Source: Bacteroidota bacterium
GTDB lineage: Bacteria; Bacteroidota; Bacteroidia; B-17B0; Aurantibacillaceae
DNA: 39,994 nt
Assembly: GCA_013816615.1 (NCBI GenBank)
Contig: JACDED010000007.1
Span: 25,661 to 65,654 of the forward strand
Direction of reading: 5' to 3'
Positions 2,052 to 27,830 of the stretch are shown piece by piece (position 1 is the first letter of the stretch; every line of letters begins with the position of its first letter). Below the pieces are notes generated by a model, which was not told the origin of the DNA, did no database searches, and was given only the letters and a program-made list of their open reading frames with translations. The position numbers and the translations under genes are program-made.

Positions 2052-3602
2052 TTAGAACCAGCCTTTTTTCTTTTTACTTCCCCCACCAATACCAAGAACG
2101 CCAAGTAAACCACGGGCAACTTCTTTCATCACCGTACGGCCAATTTGCCTTACCATTGTGTTTTCCGAGGCTTTTTCTATTACCGATTTTTCTTCTTTTT
2201 GCTTTGCTTTAGGTTTTTCTTTTTTCTCAACTTCTTTTTCGTCCTCGGCTTCGGTTATTTTCGCGGTTAAAATTTCGTAAGCGCTTTCCCTGTCAATTAC
2301 CTCATTATATTTTGCTGCGATTTTACTGGCCGCAATATTTTCAGCAATTTCTTCCGGAGATAAAACACCTATTCTGCTTGAAGGTGCCTTTAAATGAACC
2401 GCTGCCAGTGGAGTAGGGATGCCTTTTTCGTTTAACGCACTAACAAGTGCCTGGCCAATTCCCAGGCTGGTTAATAGCTCATCGGTTTTATAAAATTCAG
2501 ATATCGGATAATTCTCTGCTGTTTTTTTGATCGCTTTTCTATCTTTTTCAGTAAAAGCCCTTAAAGCATGTTGTACTTTTAAACCTAATTGTGAAAGCAC
2601 TGCATCTGGCACATCGTAAGGGTTTTGTGTAATAAAAAAAATGCCAACGCCTTTTGATCGGATCAGTTTTATAATTGATTCTAATTGATCTAACAAAGCT
2701 TTTGAAGCTTCATTAAATATTAAATGTGCTTCATCAATAAAGATGCAAAGTTTTGGTTTTTCAAGATCGCCCGCTTCAGGAAAAGAGGCATAAACTTCTG
2801 CCAATAAGCTAAGCATAAATGTTGAAAACAGCTTTGGTTTATCCTGTATATCTGTTAAACGAATAACAGATGCAATTCCTTTACCATTATTATCTGTTCT
2901 TACAAGATCCGCTACTTCAAAGCTCTTTTCTCCAAAAAATAATTCCGCTCCCTGGCTTTCCAGTTCAATTATTTTTCTGAGAATGGTTGATGTGCTTGTG
3001 CTGGTAATATTACCGTATTCTTTTTTAATTTCTTCTTTGCCTTGGGCAGTTGCATATTGAAGTAATTGTTTAAAATCCTTCAGATCAAGAAGCGGTAATT
3101 TTTTATCATCAGCGTATTTAAAAAGTATGGCAACAATTCCACTTTGCGTATCATTAAGATCTAATATTTTTGAGAACAATACCGGCCCAAATTCAGAAAC
3201 GGTTGCGCGCAATCTAACACCTTGTTCTTTTGATAAAGTAAAAAACTCGGTTGTATTTGCGCAGGCTTTAAAATCAATACCAATTAATTTGTGACGTTCT
3301 TCAATTTTTGGATTAAGTGTTGCTTCTTTTGCAATGCCGCTCAGATCTCCTTTAAGATCCATTAATAACACGGGAATCCCTGCCTGGCACATGCTTTCGG
3401 CAATGATCTGTAATGTTACTGTTTTTCCGGTTCCGGTTGCTCCGGCAATAAGGCCATGCCTGTTAAGTGTTTTTAATGGAAGCTTTATTGCTACATCTTT
3501 TTGTACTAAACCATCAAAAAGTCCGGCACCAAGGGTTATGGATTCTCCGGTTGTAGTATATCCTGTATTTAGTTGTTGTTTAAACGCATCAATTTTTTCC
3601 AT
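2052..3602 (-). CDS. HerA-like ATPase, DUF853 family (YjgR type)
   Basis: The 516-residue protein is a P-loop ATPase of the HerA/FtsK superfamily. Walker A is GATGTGKT at residues 54-61 and Walker B is LCIFIDEAHL around residues 285-294 (D290, E291). The N-terminus LNTGYTTTGESITLGAGLFDG is typical of the DUF853 family. A conserved ITQNP motif follows Walker B, and a lysine/glutamate-rich linker (about residues 440-475) leads to a basic tail ending GGGSKKKKGWF. Members are often annotated as helicases, but their role is not settled; E. coli YjgR is the best known name. An unusual point is that the start codon directly abuts the U-tract of the terminator belonging to the upstream gene (see findings). 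purQ follows after 81 bp. Confidence 0.9.
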   Translation of the reverse strand: MEKIDAFKQQLNTGYTTTGESITLGAGLFDGLVQKDVAIKLPLKTLNRHGLIAGATGTGKTVTLQIIAESMCQAGIPVLLMDLKGDLSGIAKEATLNPKIEERHKLIGIDFKACANTTEFFTLSKEQGVRLRATVSEFGPVLFSKILDLNDTQSGIVAILFKYADDKKLPLLDLKDFKQLLQYATAQGKEEIKKEYGNITSTSTSTILRKIIELESQGAELFFGEKSFEVADLVRTDNNGKGIASVIRLTDIQDKPKLFSTFMLSLLAEVYASFPEAGDLEKPKLCIFIDEAHLIFNEASKALLDQLESIIKLIRSKGVGIFFITQNPYDVPDAVLSQLGLKVQHALRAFTEKDRKAIKKTAENYPISEFYKTDELLTSLGIGQALVSALNEKGIPTPLAAVHLKAPSSRIGVLSPEEIAENIAASKIAAKYNEVIDRESAYEILTAKITEAEDEKEVEKKEKPKAKQKEEKSVIEKASENTMVRQIGRTVMKEVARGLLGVLGIGGGSKKKKGWF

Positions 3603-3653: not shown

Positions 3654-6146
3654 TTATTTCATTAAGGTAACGTGTCCCGTTTTATTATGGATCTTACCGT
3701 CCATATCTTTAAATCTTACTTTGTAAACATATACATCTTCTTTAATAGAATCGTCTCCTTTGTTATTTACCGACCCGTTCCAACCAACAGTATAATCTTT
3801 TGTATGGAACAATGAGTGACCCCAACGATCAAATACTTCCATTTCATATGTTTTAAGATCTAAACCATATGGTGAAAATTTTGGAATGAACTCATCATTT
3901 AAATCATCAAAGTTTGGCGTAAATGAACTTGGAATATAAATACCAAAATCATTTTTAACCTGTATAAGTTTACTTACAACATCTTTACAACCATGAATAG
4001 TTGTAGCAGTTAAAGTAATTTCATAATCACCGGCAACGGGGAAAATAACTTTTGGATTAATATCATTTAATTGATACAAGTTTCCTATTTGCCACTGATA
4101 AATATTAGCTCCTAAAATTGTACTTAAGTTAGTGAATTGAACTTCAGGTGTTGCTATTGTAACTTCATCAGGATTATTGCTAAAGCCTGCACGAGGCATA
4201 GCATATACTACAATTGGATTGGCGAGTACTGCTTGCGTAGCACAACCGATCTCATCTTCGTAATTAAATGTAACTGTATACGATCCCGGTATATCAAATG
4301 TATGCGTAACACTTAAACCAGGCATTGGTTCCGATCCATCTCCAAGATTCCATAAACCTGAACCTGTATTAGTGCTTGGTGTATTAAATGTAACTACAAT
4401 TGGTGAGCAACCTTTTTCAGCGTTACTAACAACCGAAACATTTGGTATTTCATTAACTGTAATACGTACAGCACTTGAATCCGGACATAAACTGGCTGTA
4501 GGCATTGAATGCGTATAGTAAGTTACGATATTATTATCGCCAACGTTAGCAGTTGCAGGAGTAAATAAGCTTCCTATAAGACCTGGTCCTGACCAAACAC
4601 CACCGGGATTTTGAACAATACTATTTAAATTGATTGGTGCGTCATTTCTGCAATACGGACCTGCATATTGCGAAAGATCGGCAGAAACAAATTTCTCAAT
4701 AGTAATTGTTGATTGACCAAAAGCTACACAAGGGCCAGCAGTTACACTATAATTAACAATGTTATCGCCAATAATAGCAAAGGCTGGGTTAAATCCACCG
4801 GATGGAGTTGTTGCACCATTGTTAGCACCACTAAATACACCACCTAAGGGAGATACCTGTAATTGTAAAGGAGGAGCTGAATTACAAAATGGCCCAACTT
4901 GCATTATGGCAGGAATAGCTAATGAATAAACATTAACGGCTGTTGTAGCTTGTGCCGGGCATAAGCCACTCGGTGATGATGCTGTGTTGTAACTTAAAAT
5001 AATATTACCAACACCTGAAGTTGCAGGATCAAAAGATGTACCGTTAATGCCTGAGCCACTCCACACACCTAAATTATTTGTTGTAAGTGGCACTAAGTTA
5101 ACCTGTGAAGATGTAACGCAAAGATCAGGTATTGTACCAGTGATAACCGCGGGTACATAAGCTTCTATCGAAATTGTTTTGGTATCAGAAACGTTACATG
5201 TGTTTGTTCCAATAACATATTGAACAACATTGTTACCAATAGCTGCAAGGCCAGGACTAAACGTTCCGGTTGAACTATTGTATACTGTTGGTGTCCATGA
5301 ACCCGTAGATGGAGAAACACCTAACTGGAAGGCAGGGGCAGTGTTACAATAAGGGCCAACCTGCGAAATTGTAGGTTGTGGTGGATTTAATACAGATACA
5401 TTTATTGTTCTTGTATCAGGACATAATGTTGTATTAGGTACAGAATTAGTATTGTAAGTTAATGTATAAACACCAGTAGGTAAATTAGGTGAGAAAATGT
5501 TTGCGGAAACACCTGTGCCACTCCAAATACCAGTTACAGTGCTTTGCACAATGGTCATAAGATTGGTTGGATTAAAAGTATTACACTGATCAGGTAAAGA
5601 ACCTGTTAAATTGGCTGTGTTAAATTGCGAAACATCAATAGATGCAGTATTTGTAGCAATACAAGAACCAATACCTACAGTATATAGAACAGTGCTTGTG
5701 CCTATTGCTGCTATAGCAGGATTAACAACACCACCCGCGGATATCGCAGGATTATTGGTCCAGATACCTCCAGCAGGATTTGCAATAATATTAACCGTAC
5801 CATTTGTATTACACAGTGGTGGAACCGGAGTAATAGTTGGAGACATTGGATTAACAACCGTTACAGTTAACGTTTGTAATGTTGGGCAGGCATAAACTGT
5901 AGGGGTTACAACAACACTGTAAACAACTGTAGCAACTGTACCGGTAATAGGTTGTGTTGTAATTTGTGTACTTGTAGCAGTTGGGGCTGCGATACCAGGG
6001 CCCGGGCTCCAGCTATAAGTAAAGTTAGATGGTAATACAGAAACACAATTTCCAAAACGTGTATTGGGCCTGTTCATTGAAAAACCCTGGCTACCAGCTG
6101 TACCACAACTTGTTTGGTTAGTTCCGAAAACACCATTCCAGATCAT
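3654..6146 (-). CDS. C-terminal part (830 codons) of a T9SS type B adhesin-like protein, downstream of an in-frame TAG
   Basis: This open frame is the continuation, in the same frame, of the secreted protein that starts at 7604; only a TAG codon at 6179-6177 and ten sense codons (VLNTPTSYNS) lie between them. The fragment contains alternating immunoglobulin-like modules of about 75 residues with recurring signatures such as GVWSGSG, SFDPAT, VGPYCN and IGDN. These are followed by a PKD-like domain (about residues 565-645, LWNLGDGS) and, at residues 732-830, a gliding-motility type C-terminal domain (IPSSFTPNFDDLNDEF, VFDRWG, GWNG, VYVYKV), the T9SS type B sorting signal. If translation began at the internal ATG it would lack a signal peptide and could not be exported. 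A terminator follows the stop codon. The likely whole is a large cell-surface or secreted adhesin. Confidence 0.8.
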   Translation of the reverse strand: MIWNGVFGTNQTSCGTAGSQGFSMNRPNTRFGNCVSVLPSNFTYSWSPGPGIAAPTATSTQITTQPITGTVATVVYSVVVTPTVYACPTLQTLTVTVVNPMSPTITPVPPLCNTNGTVNIIANPAGGIWTNNPAISAGGVVNPAIAAIGTSTVLYTVGIGSCIATNTASIDVSQFNTANLTGSLPDQCNTFNPTNLMTIVQSTVTGIWSGTGVSANIFSPNLPTGVYTLTYNTNSVPNTTLCPDTRTINVSVLNPPQPTISQVGPYCNTAPAFQLGVSPSTGSWTPTVYNSSTGTFSPGLAAIGNNVVQYVIGTNTCNVSDTKTISIEAYVPAVITGTIPDLCVTSSQVNLVPLTTNNLGVWSGSGINGTSFDPATSGVGNIILSYNTASSPSGLCPAQATTAVNVYSLAIPAIMQVGPFCNSAPPLQLQVSPLGGVFSGANNGATTPSGGFNPAFAIIGDNIVNYSVTAGPCVAFGQSTITIEKFVSADLSQYAGPYCRNDAPINLNSIVQNPGGVWSGPGLIGSLFTPATANVGDNNIVTYYTHSMPTASLCPDSSAVRITVNEIPNVSVVSNAEKGCSPIVVTFNTPSTNTGSGLWNLGDGSEPMPGLSVTHTFDIPGSYTVTFNYEDEIGCATQAVLANPIVVYAMPRAGFSNNPDEVTIATPEVQFTNLSTILGANIYQWQIGNLYQLNDINPKVIFPVAGDYEITLTATTIHGCKDVVSKLIQVKNDFGIYIPSSFTPNFDDLNDEFIPKFSPYGLDLKTYEMEVFDRWGHSLFHTKDYTVGWNGSVNNKGDDSIKEDVYVYKVRFKDMDGKIHNKTGHVTLMK

Positions 6147-6176
6147 TGAATTATAAGATGTAGGAGTATTTAAAAC

Positions 6177-6179
6177 CTA
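6177..6179 (-). other. In-frame TAG stop splitting a 1316-codon T9SS gene
   Basis: Codon 476 counted from the ATG at 7604 is TAG. Both sides are in one frame and read as continuous family sequence (PWQFISA, stop, VLNTPTSYNS). A nonsense mutation, a base-call error or read-through would each explain it. Confidence 0.85.
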
Positions 6180-7604
6180 AGCGCTAATAAATTGCCATGG
6201 TGCATTACCTCTACAGATGTCAACTAAAATGTTTGATACACCATCCCAATAATATGGAGTGGCAAATGTATGGGTGTTCCAGCCATTAACAGGGGCAAAG
6301 TTAGCCTGGGTAAAAACCTGGCTTAAACCTGCATTATCAAAAGCAGTAACTACTGTGTTAGTAGTACATTTCATTTTAATTGTGTAGTTGGTTAAAGATC
6401 CAATACCATTTGTAGCAGCAACGTTAAATGCCATACTCGTTAAATAACCTGCAGAAACACCCGACGCTAAAAGTTCTGAAGCGCGGTAAATGATCTGTAA
6501 ATGCGTGTCATAATAATATTTGTCATATACCGTAGGTGGTTGCCATGAAGGGTTAGATGTAGTGGATGATCCGACATCTTTAAGAAGCGGGCTGGCACAT
6601 GTTGGCCCAAGACCAAGTGTAGAACATGGTGTTCCGGGTAAAGTGCCTAAAATTACAGAGGGGGTTAATATACCGCCCTGGCAAACTGTTGCCGTTAGAG
6701 GTGTGAGTGTGTAAGTAGGATAATCGGTAACGGTTACTTGTACAGTTTTTGTTGCAGGGCAAGATCCGGGAGAAACAGTTACGCTATAAATACCACTCAT
6801 TGTTGCTGTAGCATTTGTAATAGTAGGACTTTGAGTATTACTTGCAAAGTTACCCGGACCAGACCATGTATAAGTTAAAGCTACAGTTGGATTTGCAGAT
6901 GTAAGAACATTTAAGCTGATTGTTTGACCCGCGCATATTGATGGGGTAGACGTAGAGGCTGTTGCAGTAATAATACCCGCAGGTGTCATATTTACATATA
7001 CATTATATTCTTCAGTTTCGCCAAAACCATAGTTGATACAAGGGTCAATTGTTGGTCCGTTTGTAAAGTAAGCACATCTAACACGCATTCTATAAGTACC
7101 TGTTGCTTGTCCCACAGGCACAGTAAAATTTGCACTGTTAAAACTTGCAGCTGCCGGAACACCCGGTATAGAACAAACACGTTCGTTAGTTAAATTATAA
7201 ACACCGTTTTGATCCCAATCAATAAAACAGGTAAAGCCTTGGCTGTATGTTTGGCCTGACTGAAAAGTACAGTTAACAACCTGCCCTGGAGTTACTACTA
7301 AATATTGTGAACAACCAAAATAGAAAAAATTACGAATACCTACTGCGGGAAAATTTTGAGCATTACACCCTGAGTTATTATTTGTAATATTTACATTAGC
7401 ACCAGTAGTACTAAAACTATTGATGAAATCATTAATGAAATTACCCGGGGAATTAGAAGGCCCTGGTTGGTTACAAGGTATTGTTGAATACAATGGAAAG
7501 CAATAAGGAGCAGGACCAACACCCGGTTGAGCAAATAAATTTGCTTGCGAGAATACGATCAAAGCAACTACTAAAACGCTAACTTTATTTAATATATTTT
7601 TCAT
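6177..7604 (-). CDS. N-terminal part (475 aa) of the interrupted T9SS type B protein; GEVED and Ig-like domains
   Basis: It begins with a clear signal peptide (MKNILNKVSVLVVALIVFSQ..LFAQ, cleavage about residue 26). A GEVED-type domain follows (about residues 55-205: CFIDWDQNG, YRMRVRCAYF, GFGETEEYNVYV), then an Ig-like SprB-type repeat (about residues 215-295, YTWSGPGNF), and a beta-sandwich segment with YYWDGVSNILVDIC that in related proteins continues past the point where the TAG occurs. It has a signal peptide but no sorting domain, so the short product would reach the periplasm but not the T9SS. The gene follows the small exported protein at 7617 by 12 bp, so the two are probably co-transcribed. 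See the linked entry at 3654-6146. Confidence 0.8.
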   Translation of the reverse strand: MKNILNKVSVLVVALIVFSQANLFAQPGVGPAPYCFPLYSTIPCNQPGPSNSPGNFINDFINSFSTTGANVNITNNNSGCNAQNFPAVGIRNFFYFGCSQYLVVTPGQVVNCTFQSGQTYSQGFTCFIDWDQNGVYNLTNERVCSIPGVPAAASFNSANFTVPVGQATGTYRMRVRCAYFTNGPTIDPCINYGFGETEEYNVYVNMTPAGIITATASTSTPSICAGQTISLNVLTSANPTVALTYTWSGPGNFASNTQSPTITNATATMSGIYSVTVSPGSCPATKTVQVTVTDYPTYTLTPLTATVCQGGILTPSVILGTLPGTPCSTLGLGPTCASPLLKDVGSSTTSNPSWQPPTVYDKYYYDTHLQIIYRASELLASGVSAGYLTSMAFNVAATNGIGSLTNYTIKMKCTTNTVVTAFDNAGLSQVFTQANFAPVNGWNTHTFATPYYWDGVSNILVDICRGNAPWQFISA

Positions 7605-7616
7605 TTAAAAAGTAGA

Positions 7617-8009
7617 TTACGGTTTGTAAATAAGTTTATTCGTAGGTAATAAAACAATGGCATCTTTAAAGCCAGGAATAACAACAATTGATTCTTCAGT
7701 TGCTTTTCTGTTGCTTTCAAAACGGCTAATATCTATAGCCGCTTCGTTCATTGTTTCGCCTGAAGTTGTATGATTACGCTTTATATAAAAGGACTCAGAA
7801 TAATACCACATCTCTTTTACATATTGAAACTTGTTATTGGTCTTCCATGTTTGGTAAACACTTCCACCACCATGACGAAATTCAACATATGGCTCAAATT
7901 GTTTTTCTTTAGCAGGATCAATCTTTATTTTACTCCAGTCTTGTGAAAAAGAAAAAAACGACATTGTAATAAAAATGCCAAGAAAAAATAGTTTAAGATT
8001 TGTTTTCAT
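7617..8009 (-). CDS. Small exported protein of unknown function
   Basis: This 130-residue protein has an N-terminal signal peptide (MKTNLKLFFLGIFITMSFFSFSQ, cleavage about residue 23). I do not recognise a family. The mature part is rich in aromatic and charged residues (FRHGGGSVYQTW, MWYYSESFYIKR) and ends in a hydrophobic strand (AIVLLPTNKLIYKP), suggesting a compact beta-rich periplasmic or surface protein. It lies 12 bp upstream of the interrupted T9SS type B gene on the same strand and is probably the first gene of that operon. A TAACTTTG box lies 22-29 bp upstream of the ATG. Confidence 0.7.
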   Translation of the reverse strand: MKTNLKLFFLGIFITMSFFSFSQDWSKIKIDPAKEKQFEPYVEFRHGGGSVYQTWKTNNKFQYVKEMWYYSESFYIKRNHTTSGETMNEAAIDISRFESNRKATEESIVVIPGFKDAIVLLPTNKLIYKP

Positions 8010-27261: not shown

Positions 27262-27830
27262 GTGAGATCTTCAGTAAAACAAACTATAAAAACAGATAAA
27301 GCTTATTTTATGACATCAACAGTTGTTGGATGGATTGATGTATTTACCCGAAAAGAGTATAGAGACATCTTAATAAAATCTTTAGAATATTGTAAACGTA
27401 AAAAAGGTTTAGTTGTGTTGCTTATGTTATTATGAGTAATCATATACATCTTATTGCAAATACCGAAGAGCCTTTTTTGCTAAAAGATGTTATGCGTGAT
27501 TTCAAAAAATTTACATCCAAAGAAATTATTTCACTGATTGAAAATGATTCTGAAAGCAGGCGAGAATGGATGTTATCCATATTTGCAAACGGAGCTGCAA
27601 ATAGCAGTAAACATAAAAACTATAAATTTTGGCAGGAAGGTAATCACGCAATTGAATTGTATAGTGAGAAATTTGTTTGGGATAAAATAAATTATATTCA
27701 TGAAAACCCTGTTAATTCAGGTTATGTAAAAAAGGCTGAGGATTGGTTATATTCTTCGGCAAGAAATTATTATGGATTGGATACTATTTTTGAAGTAGAG
27801 TGTATTCAGCAAAAATTAATTACATATTAA
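27262..27830 (+). pseudogene. REP-associated tyrosine transposase (RAYT, IS200-like), frameshifted
   Basis: From GTG at 27262 (or ATG at 27310) the frame reads TDKAYFMTSTVVGWIDVFTRKEY and then KKGLVV. It shifts at about 27417-27421, so the stop TGA is reached at 27433. The +1 frame continues MSNHIHLIANTEE to YIHENPVNSGYVKKAEDWLYSSARNYYG and ends at 27830. A one-base loss in a ...VVYAYVIMSNHIH-type stretch would explain it. The HxH metal pair (HIH) and the C-terminal ENPV/SSARNYY motif are those of Y1 HUH transposases that mobilise REP sequences. Flanking REP palindromes lie 45 bp to the left and 32 bp to the right. As it stands the intact reading frame is lost. Confidence 0.85.

Follow-up and report, generated by a model that had tools for sequence, protein, structure and literature searches.

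The window analysed here comprises 39,994 nucleotides from the draft genome of a Bacteroidota bacterium (contig JACDED010000007.1 of assembly GCA_013816615.1), and its reverse strand carries, from position 7604 to 3654, an interrupted gene for a type B surface protein of the type IX secretion system (T9SS), recognised by translation and by alignment with orthologues. The full frame has 1317 codons: 1315 sense codons, the terminal TAA (3656-3654) and, at codon 476, a single internal stop, TAG (6179-6177). In the list of open reading frames (ORFs) the gene appears as two reverse-strand entries, an N-terminal part of 475 residues (6177-7604) and a C-terminal part of 830 residues (3654-6146), the latter starting at the first ATG past the stop. 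The initial annotation had described the TAG as the sole break in this frame and had read ten codons, VLNTPTSYNS, between it and the next ATG (6146), and translation confirmed both statements; no second stop or frameshift was found in the 3.95 kb of the gene. Twelve bases upstream, on the same strand, the ORF list places a small protein with a signal-peptide-like start (7617-8009), which has a colinear orthologue in the nearest relative, genome G007, and the downstream neighbour, also on the reverse strand (2052-3602), is a HerA-like helicase (Pfam PF05872) found in the same order in G007, the one genome for which gene order was compared in detail. The locus as a whole is colinear with that of G007. 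Since these flanking genes are colinear and the orthologues align end to end over 1316 positions, the open frame is more than a product of chance.

In the T9SS type B (CHU_C / TIGR04131) surface proteins of Bacteroidota, a signal peptide precedes GEVED, Ig-like and PKD domains, and the type B sorting domain comes last, at the C terminus. The protein encoded here follows this plan, differing in that its frame is interrupted. All of its elements lie on the reverse strand. A signal peptide (residues 1-25; 7530-7604), identified by inspection of the sequence, is followed by a GEVED domain (PF20009, residues 125-202; 6999-7232; Pfam E 1.3e-16), by an Ig-like domain (residues 216-292; 6729-6959), which is a weak match under the Pfam cut-off, and by a predicted jelly-roll domain (about residues 336-525; 6030-6599), delimited by a structure model and structural comparison, which the TAG cuts where a late strand begins. 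The C-terminal part carries PKD domains (PF18911, best stretch at 4233-4403, E 7.8e-15) and ends in the type B sorting domain (TIGR04131 / PF13585 CHU_C; 3660-3938), for which the TIGR04131 profile gave 43.4 bits against a curated cut-off of 35, and 48.0 bits in another search. The signal peptide and the sorting domain were thus seen where the initial annotation had placed them, in the N-terminal and C-terminal parts, respectively. Profile searches detected no sorting domain in the N-terminal part, and inspection of the C-terminal ORF revealed no signal peptide, so that the TAG parts two elements that are joined in the orthologues. The label "adhesin", inferred from this domain make-up, is a fair guess.

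The genome is well provided with proteins of this kind. Forty-eight matches to the type B sorting domain lie above the cut-off in the assembly, the gene in the window among them, and the T9SS protein SprA (TIGR04189) is encoded, in two pieces at contig ends. Among the short type B ORFs read elsewhere in the genome, some run into contig ends or have their own signal-peptide-like start. One fragment of 191 residues carries the sorting domain with no gene body upstream (L124:1027-1599, on contig G000:C69), and it looks like a remnant or a misassembly. Within the window, a frame resembling a REP-associated transposase (27290-27830, forward strand; named by eye) is frameshifted, its start lying in one frame (27157) and its remainder in another (27156).

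Sixty relatives were searched for orthologues. End-to-end orthologues without stops were found in G007 (87% identical), G019, G021, G022, G003 and G029, and longer relatives in G012, G034 and others; the public contigs with matches include JAEUTP010000017.1 and DDPF01000007.1 of UBA2475. Nine orthologues of the same genus, 58-87% identical, have an open frame through the site of the stop, and a codon alignment of these with the window gene showed a sense codon at position 476 in all nine, serine in eight of them. The stretch of 210 residues around the stop could be matched 77 times in 40 genomes of the genus; the window's copy is the only one interrupted (none of the other 76 is), and in none of the nine orthologues is a stop kept at the same place. 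Homologues therefore neither begin nor finish at this point, which had been the alternative envisaged when an alignment was first proposed. Sporadic stops do occur in other genes of the family: a paralogue of 1726 residues in G012, another species of the genus, contains one in-frame TGA (L056, around 5859, on G012:C32), and single matches of the wider family in G033 and G003 contain a TAA. Such events are thus not peculiar to this locus.

The domain that is cut was modelled on the G007 sequence (gene positions 325-534, with 18 sequences), giving a pLDDT of 88.6, a pTM of 0.86 and a fold in which beta strands predominate. The known structures closest to this model are carbohydrate esterases whose N-terminal domain resembles a binding module (7tog, Z 10.8, rmsd 3.6 over 160 residues), along with the lectin-like domain of Cwp84 (Z 9.4, rmsd 4.2 over 150). 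Foldseek alone returned no match below E 0.001 with this model, and a search of solved structures for sequence relatives of the domain gave nothing significant. As modelled, the domain is likely a jelly roll; that it might bind sugar is only a guess. The TAG corresponds to domain residue 152, and in the model the strands from this residue on are lost, together with the invariant cysteines at domain residues 176 and 196, which are missing from the N-terminal part. The claim that the halves are useless apart gains weight from this: either is unlikely to work alone as type IX cargo, one being deprived of the sorting domain, the other of the signal peptide, and the folded domain being cut.

Comparison with G007 over the whole gene gave dS 1.01, dN 0.089 and a dN/dS of 0.088, these ratios being rough because dS is near 1. 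On the two sides of the stop, where the initial annotation had proposed that the ratio be measured, dN/dS was similarly low (0.097 for the N-terminal and 0.077 for the C-terminal part), and the neighbouring genes ranged from 0.03 to 0.19. When codon changes were polarised with G019 and G021, 23 non-synonymous and 91 synonymous changes fell on the branch leading to the window gene, as compared with 29 and 117 on the G007 branch, with no relaxation of constraint seen on the former. Given these low ratios, the lack of relaxation and the values of the neighbours, the gene was ordinarily constrained along almost the whole of its branch. Averaged over an entire branch, constraint does not distinguish a stop of very recent origin from one that is tolerated. 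A bound on the age of the stop comes from the lesions that should have followed it. For each substitution per site, about 117-153 nonsense changes would be expected (frameshift rates, from indels, being assumed), and, provided that the gene has evolved neutrally from the stop onwards, the finding of no second lesion limits the elapsed time to roughly 0.006-0.013 substitutions per site, a few percent of the branch.

Taken together, the observations are best explained by a real nonsense mutation that struck, very recently, a vertically inherited and otherwise intact type IX (type B) surface-protein gene, a reading to which we assign a probability of about 0.7. Two other origins of the break were considered and rejected: a compensating pair of frameshifts around the TAG, since the frame aligns with the orthologues without any shift, and gene conversion from a near-identical paralogue, as none was found in the genome with the N-terminal part as query and the best other match to the full domain reaches 38%. 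Of the three possibilities named in the initial annotation, recent decay fits best, a leaky, functional stop gained no positive support, and a base error is a possibility of some weight.

Under this last explanation, the TAG would have arisen as a base or consensus error, and the organism itself would have an intact gene. The species is represented by one draft genome of 246 contigs, the TAG being known from that assembly alone, and a lone change in a gene otherwise normally constrained is precisely how an error is expected to look. However, of the other ORFs of the window, 24 have a match in the colinear region of G007, and none of these is broken within the aligned stretch, indicating that errors are not frequent here. 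In short-read consensus sequences substitution errors are rarer than indel errors, and this would also count against an error if the window was obtained in that way. A precedent does exist in Mycobacterium smegmatis, in which 28 of 73 interrupted genes proved on resequencing to be sequencing errors (PMC1852416). On balance, an error is improbable, though far from negligible.

The remaining explanations depend on how the TAG is decoded. Release factor 1 (prfA) is present in the assembly, TAG ends eight other ORFs of the window, and ARAGORN read no CUA anticodon at the loci covering the 52 tRNA matches of the assembly, which is 97% complete, so that a tRNA may have been missed. One anticodon could not be read, that of a tRNA in an array on contig C243. 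Roughly 22 tRNA genes are arrayed on this contig (L093; G000:C243:14000-30000), adjoining NAMPT-, PRPP synthase-, NUDIX regulator-, macro domain- and exonuclease-like genes, an arrangement that, judged from its sequence, resembles a phage-type module for NAD+ salvage and tRNAs. Since release factor 1 is present, no CUA anticodon was read and other genes end in TAG, this codon is a normal stop; general recoding, already dismissed in the initial annotation, is ruled out for practical purposes and on firmer grounds, and suppression of the TAG would have no visible agent. A leaky or regulated stop, whose readthrough would supply low levels of full-length protein and keep the gene functional, is compatible with the low dN/dS of both halves, and a published survey reports that in-frame stops are widespread in bacterial genes that evolve under purifying selection, and interprets them as readthrough (PMC7918605). 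That work, however, relied on stops common to two or more species, whereas the present one occurs in no relative, and this, with the failure to read a CUA anticodon, renders a leaky stop quite unlikely. Slightly less likely still is an expression switch, in which a leaky or polymorphic TAG kept in the population would throttle the display of this surface protein. That the halves are separate functional genes is hardly credible: both ORFs are open and an ATG lies 11 codons past the stop, but the stop falls inside one predicted domain, the C-terminal part shows no signal peptide on inspection and each orthologue is one gene. None of the observations favours recoding, programmed readthrough or a functional split.

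Under the preferred reading of a recent nonsense mutation, a single substitution would have interrupted the gene, and release factor 1 would end translation at codon 476. The resulting fragment of 475 residues could be exported to the periplasm, would have no sorting domain and would end within a folded domain, and the remainder, if translated from a restart, would lack a signal peptide. The sampled strain would most likely no longer display the protein on its surface, a loss that may be tolerable, as about 47 other genes of the genome carry a type B sorting domain. The interrupted genes of M. smegmatis (PMC1852416) and the in-frame stops of PMC7918605 likewise combine one stop, purifying selection and intact relatives; the stop described here differs in being found in one draft genome only, with no sharing between species. 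For interrupted T9SS adhesins the literature offered general parallels only. The observation is real and, as biology, ordinary. For annotation, the two ORFs should be entered together as a single interrupted gene; to list a secreted protein and, next to it, an independent sorting-domain protein would be incorrect. A real stop would add one example to the turnover of redundant type IX surface proteins.
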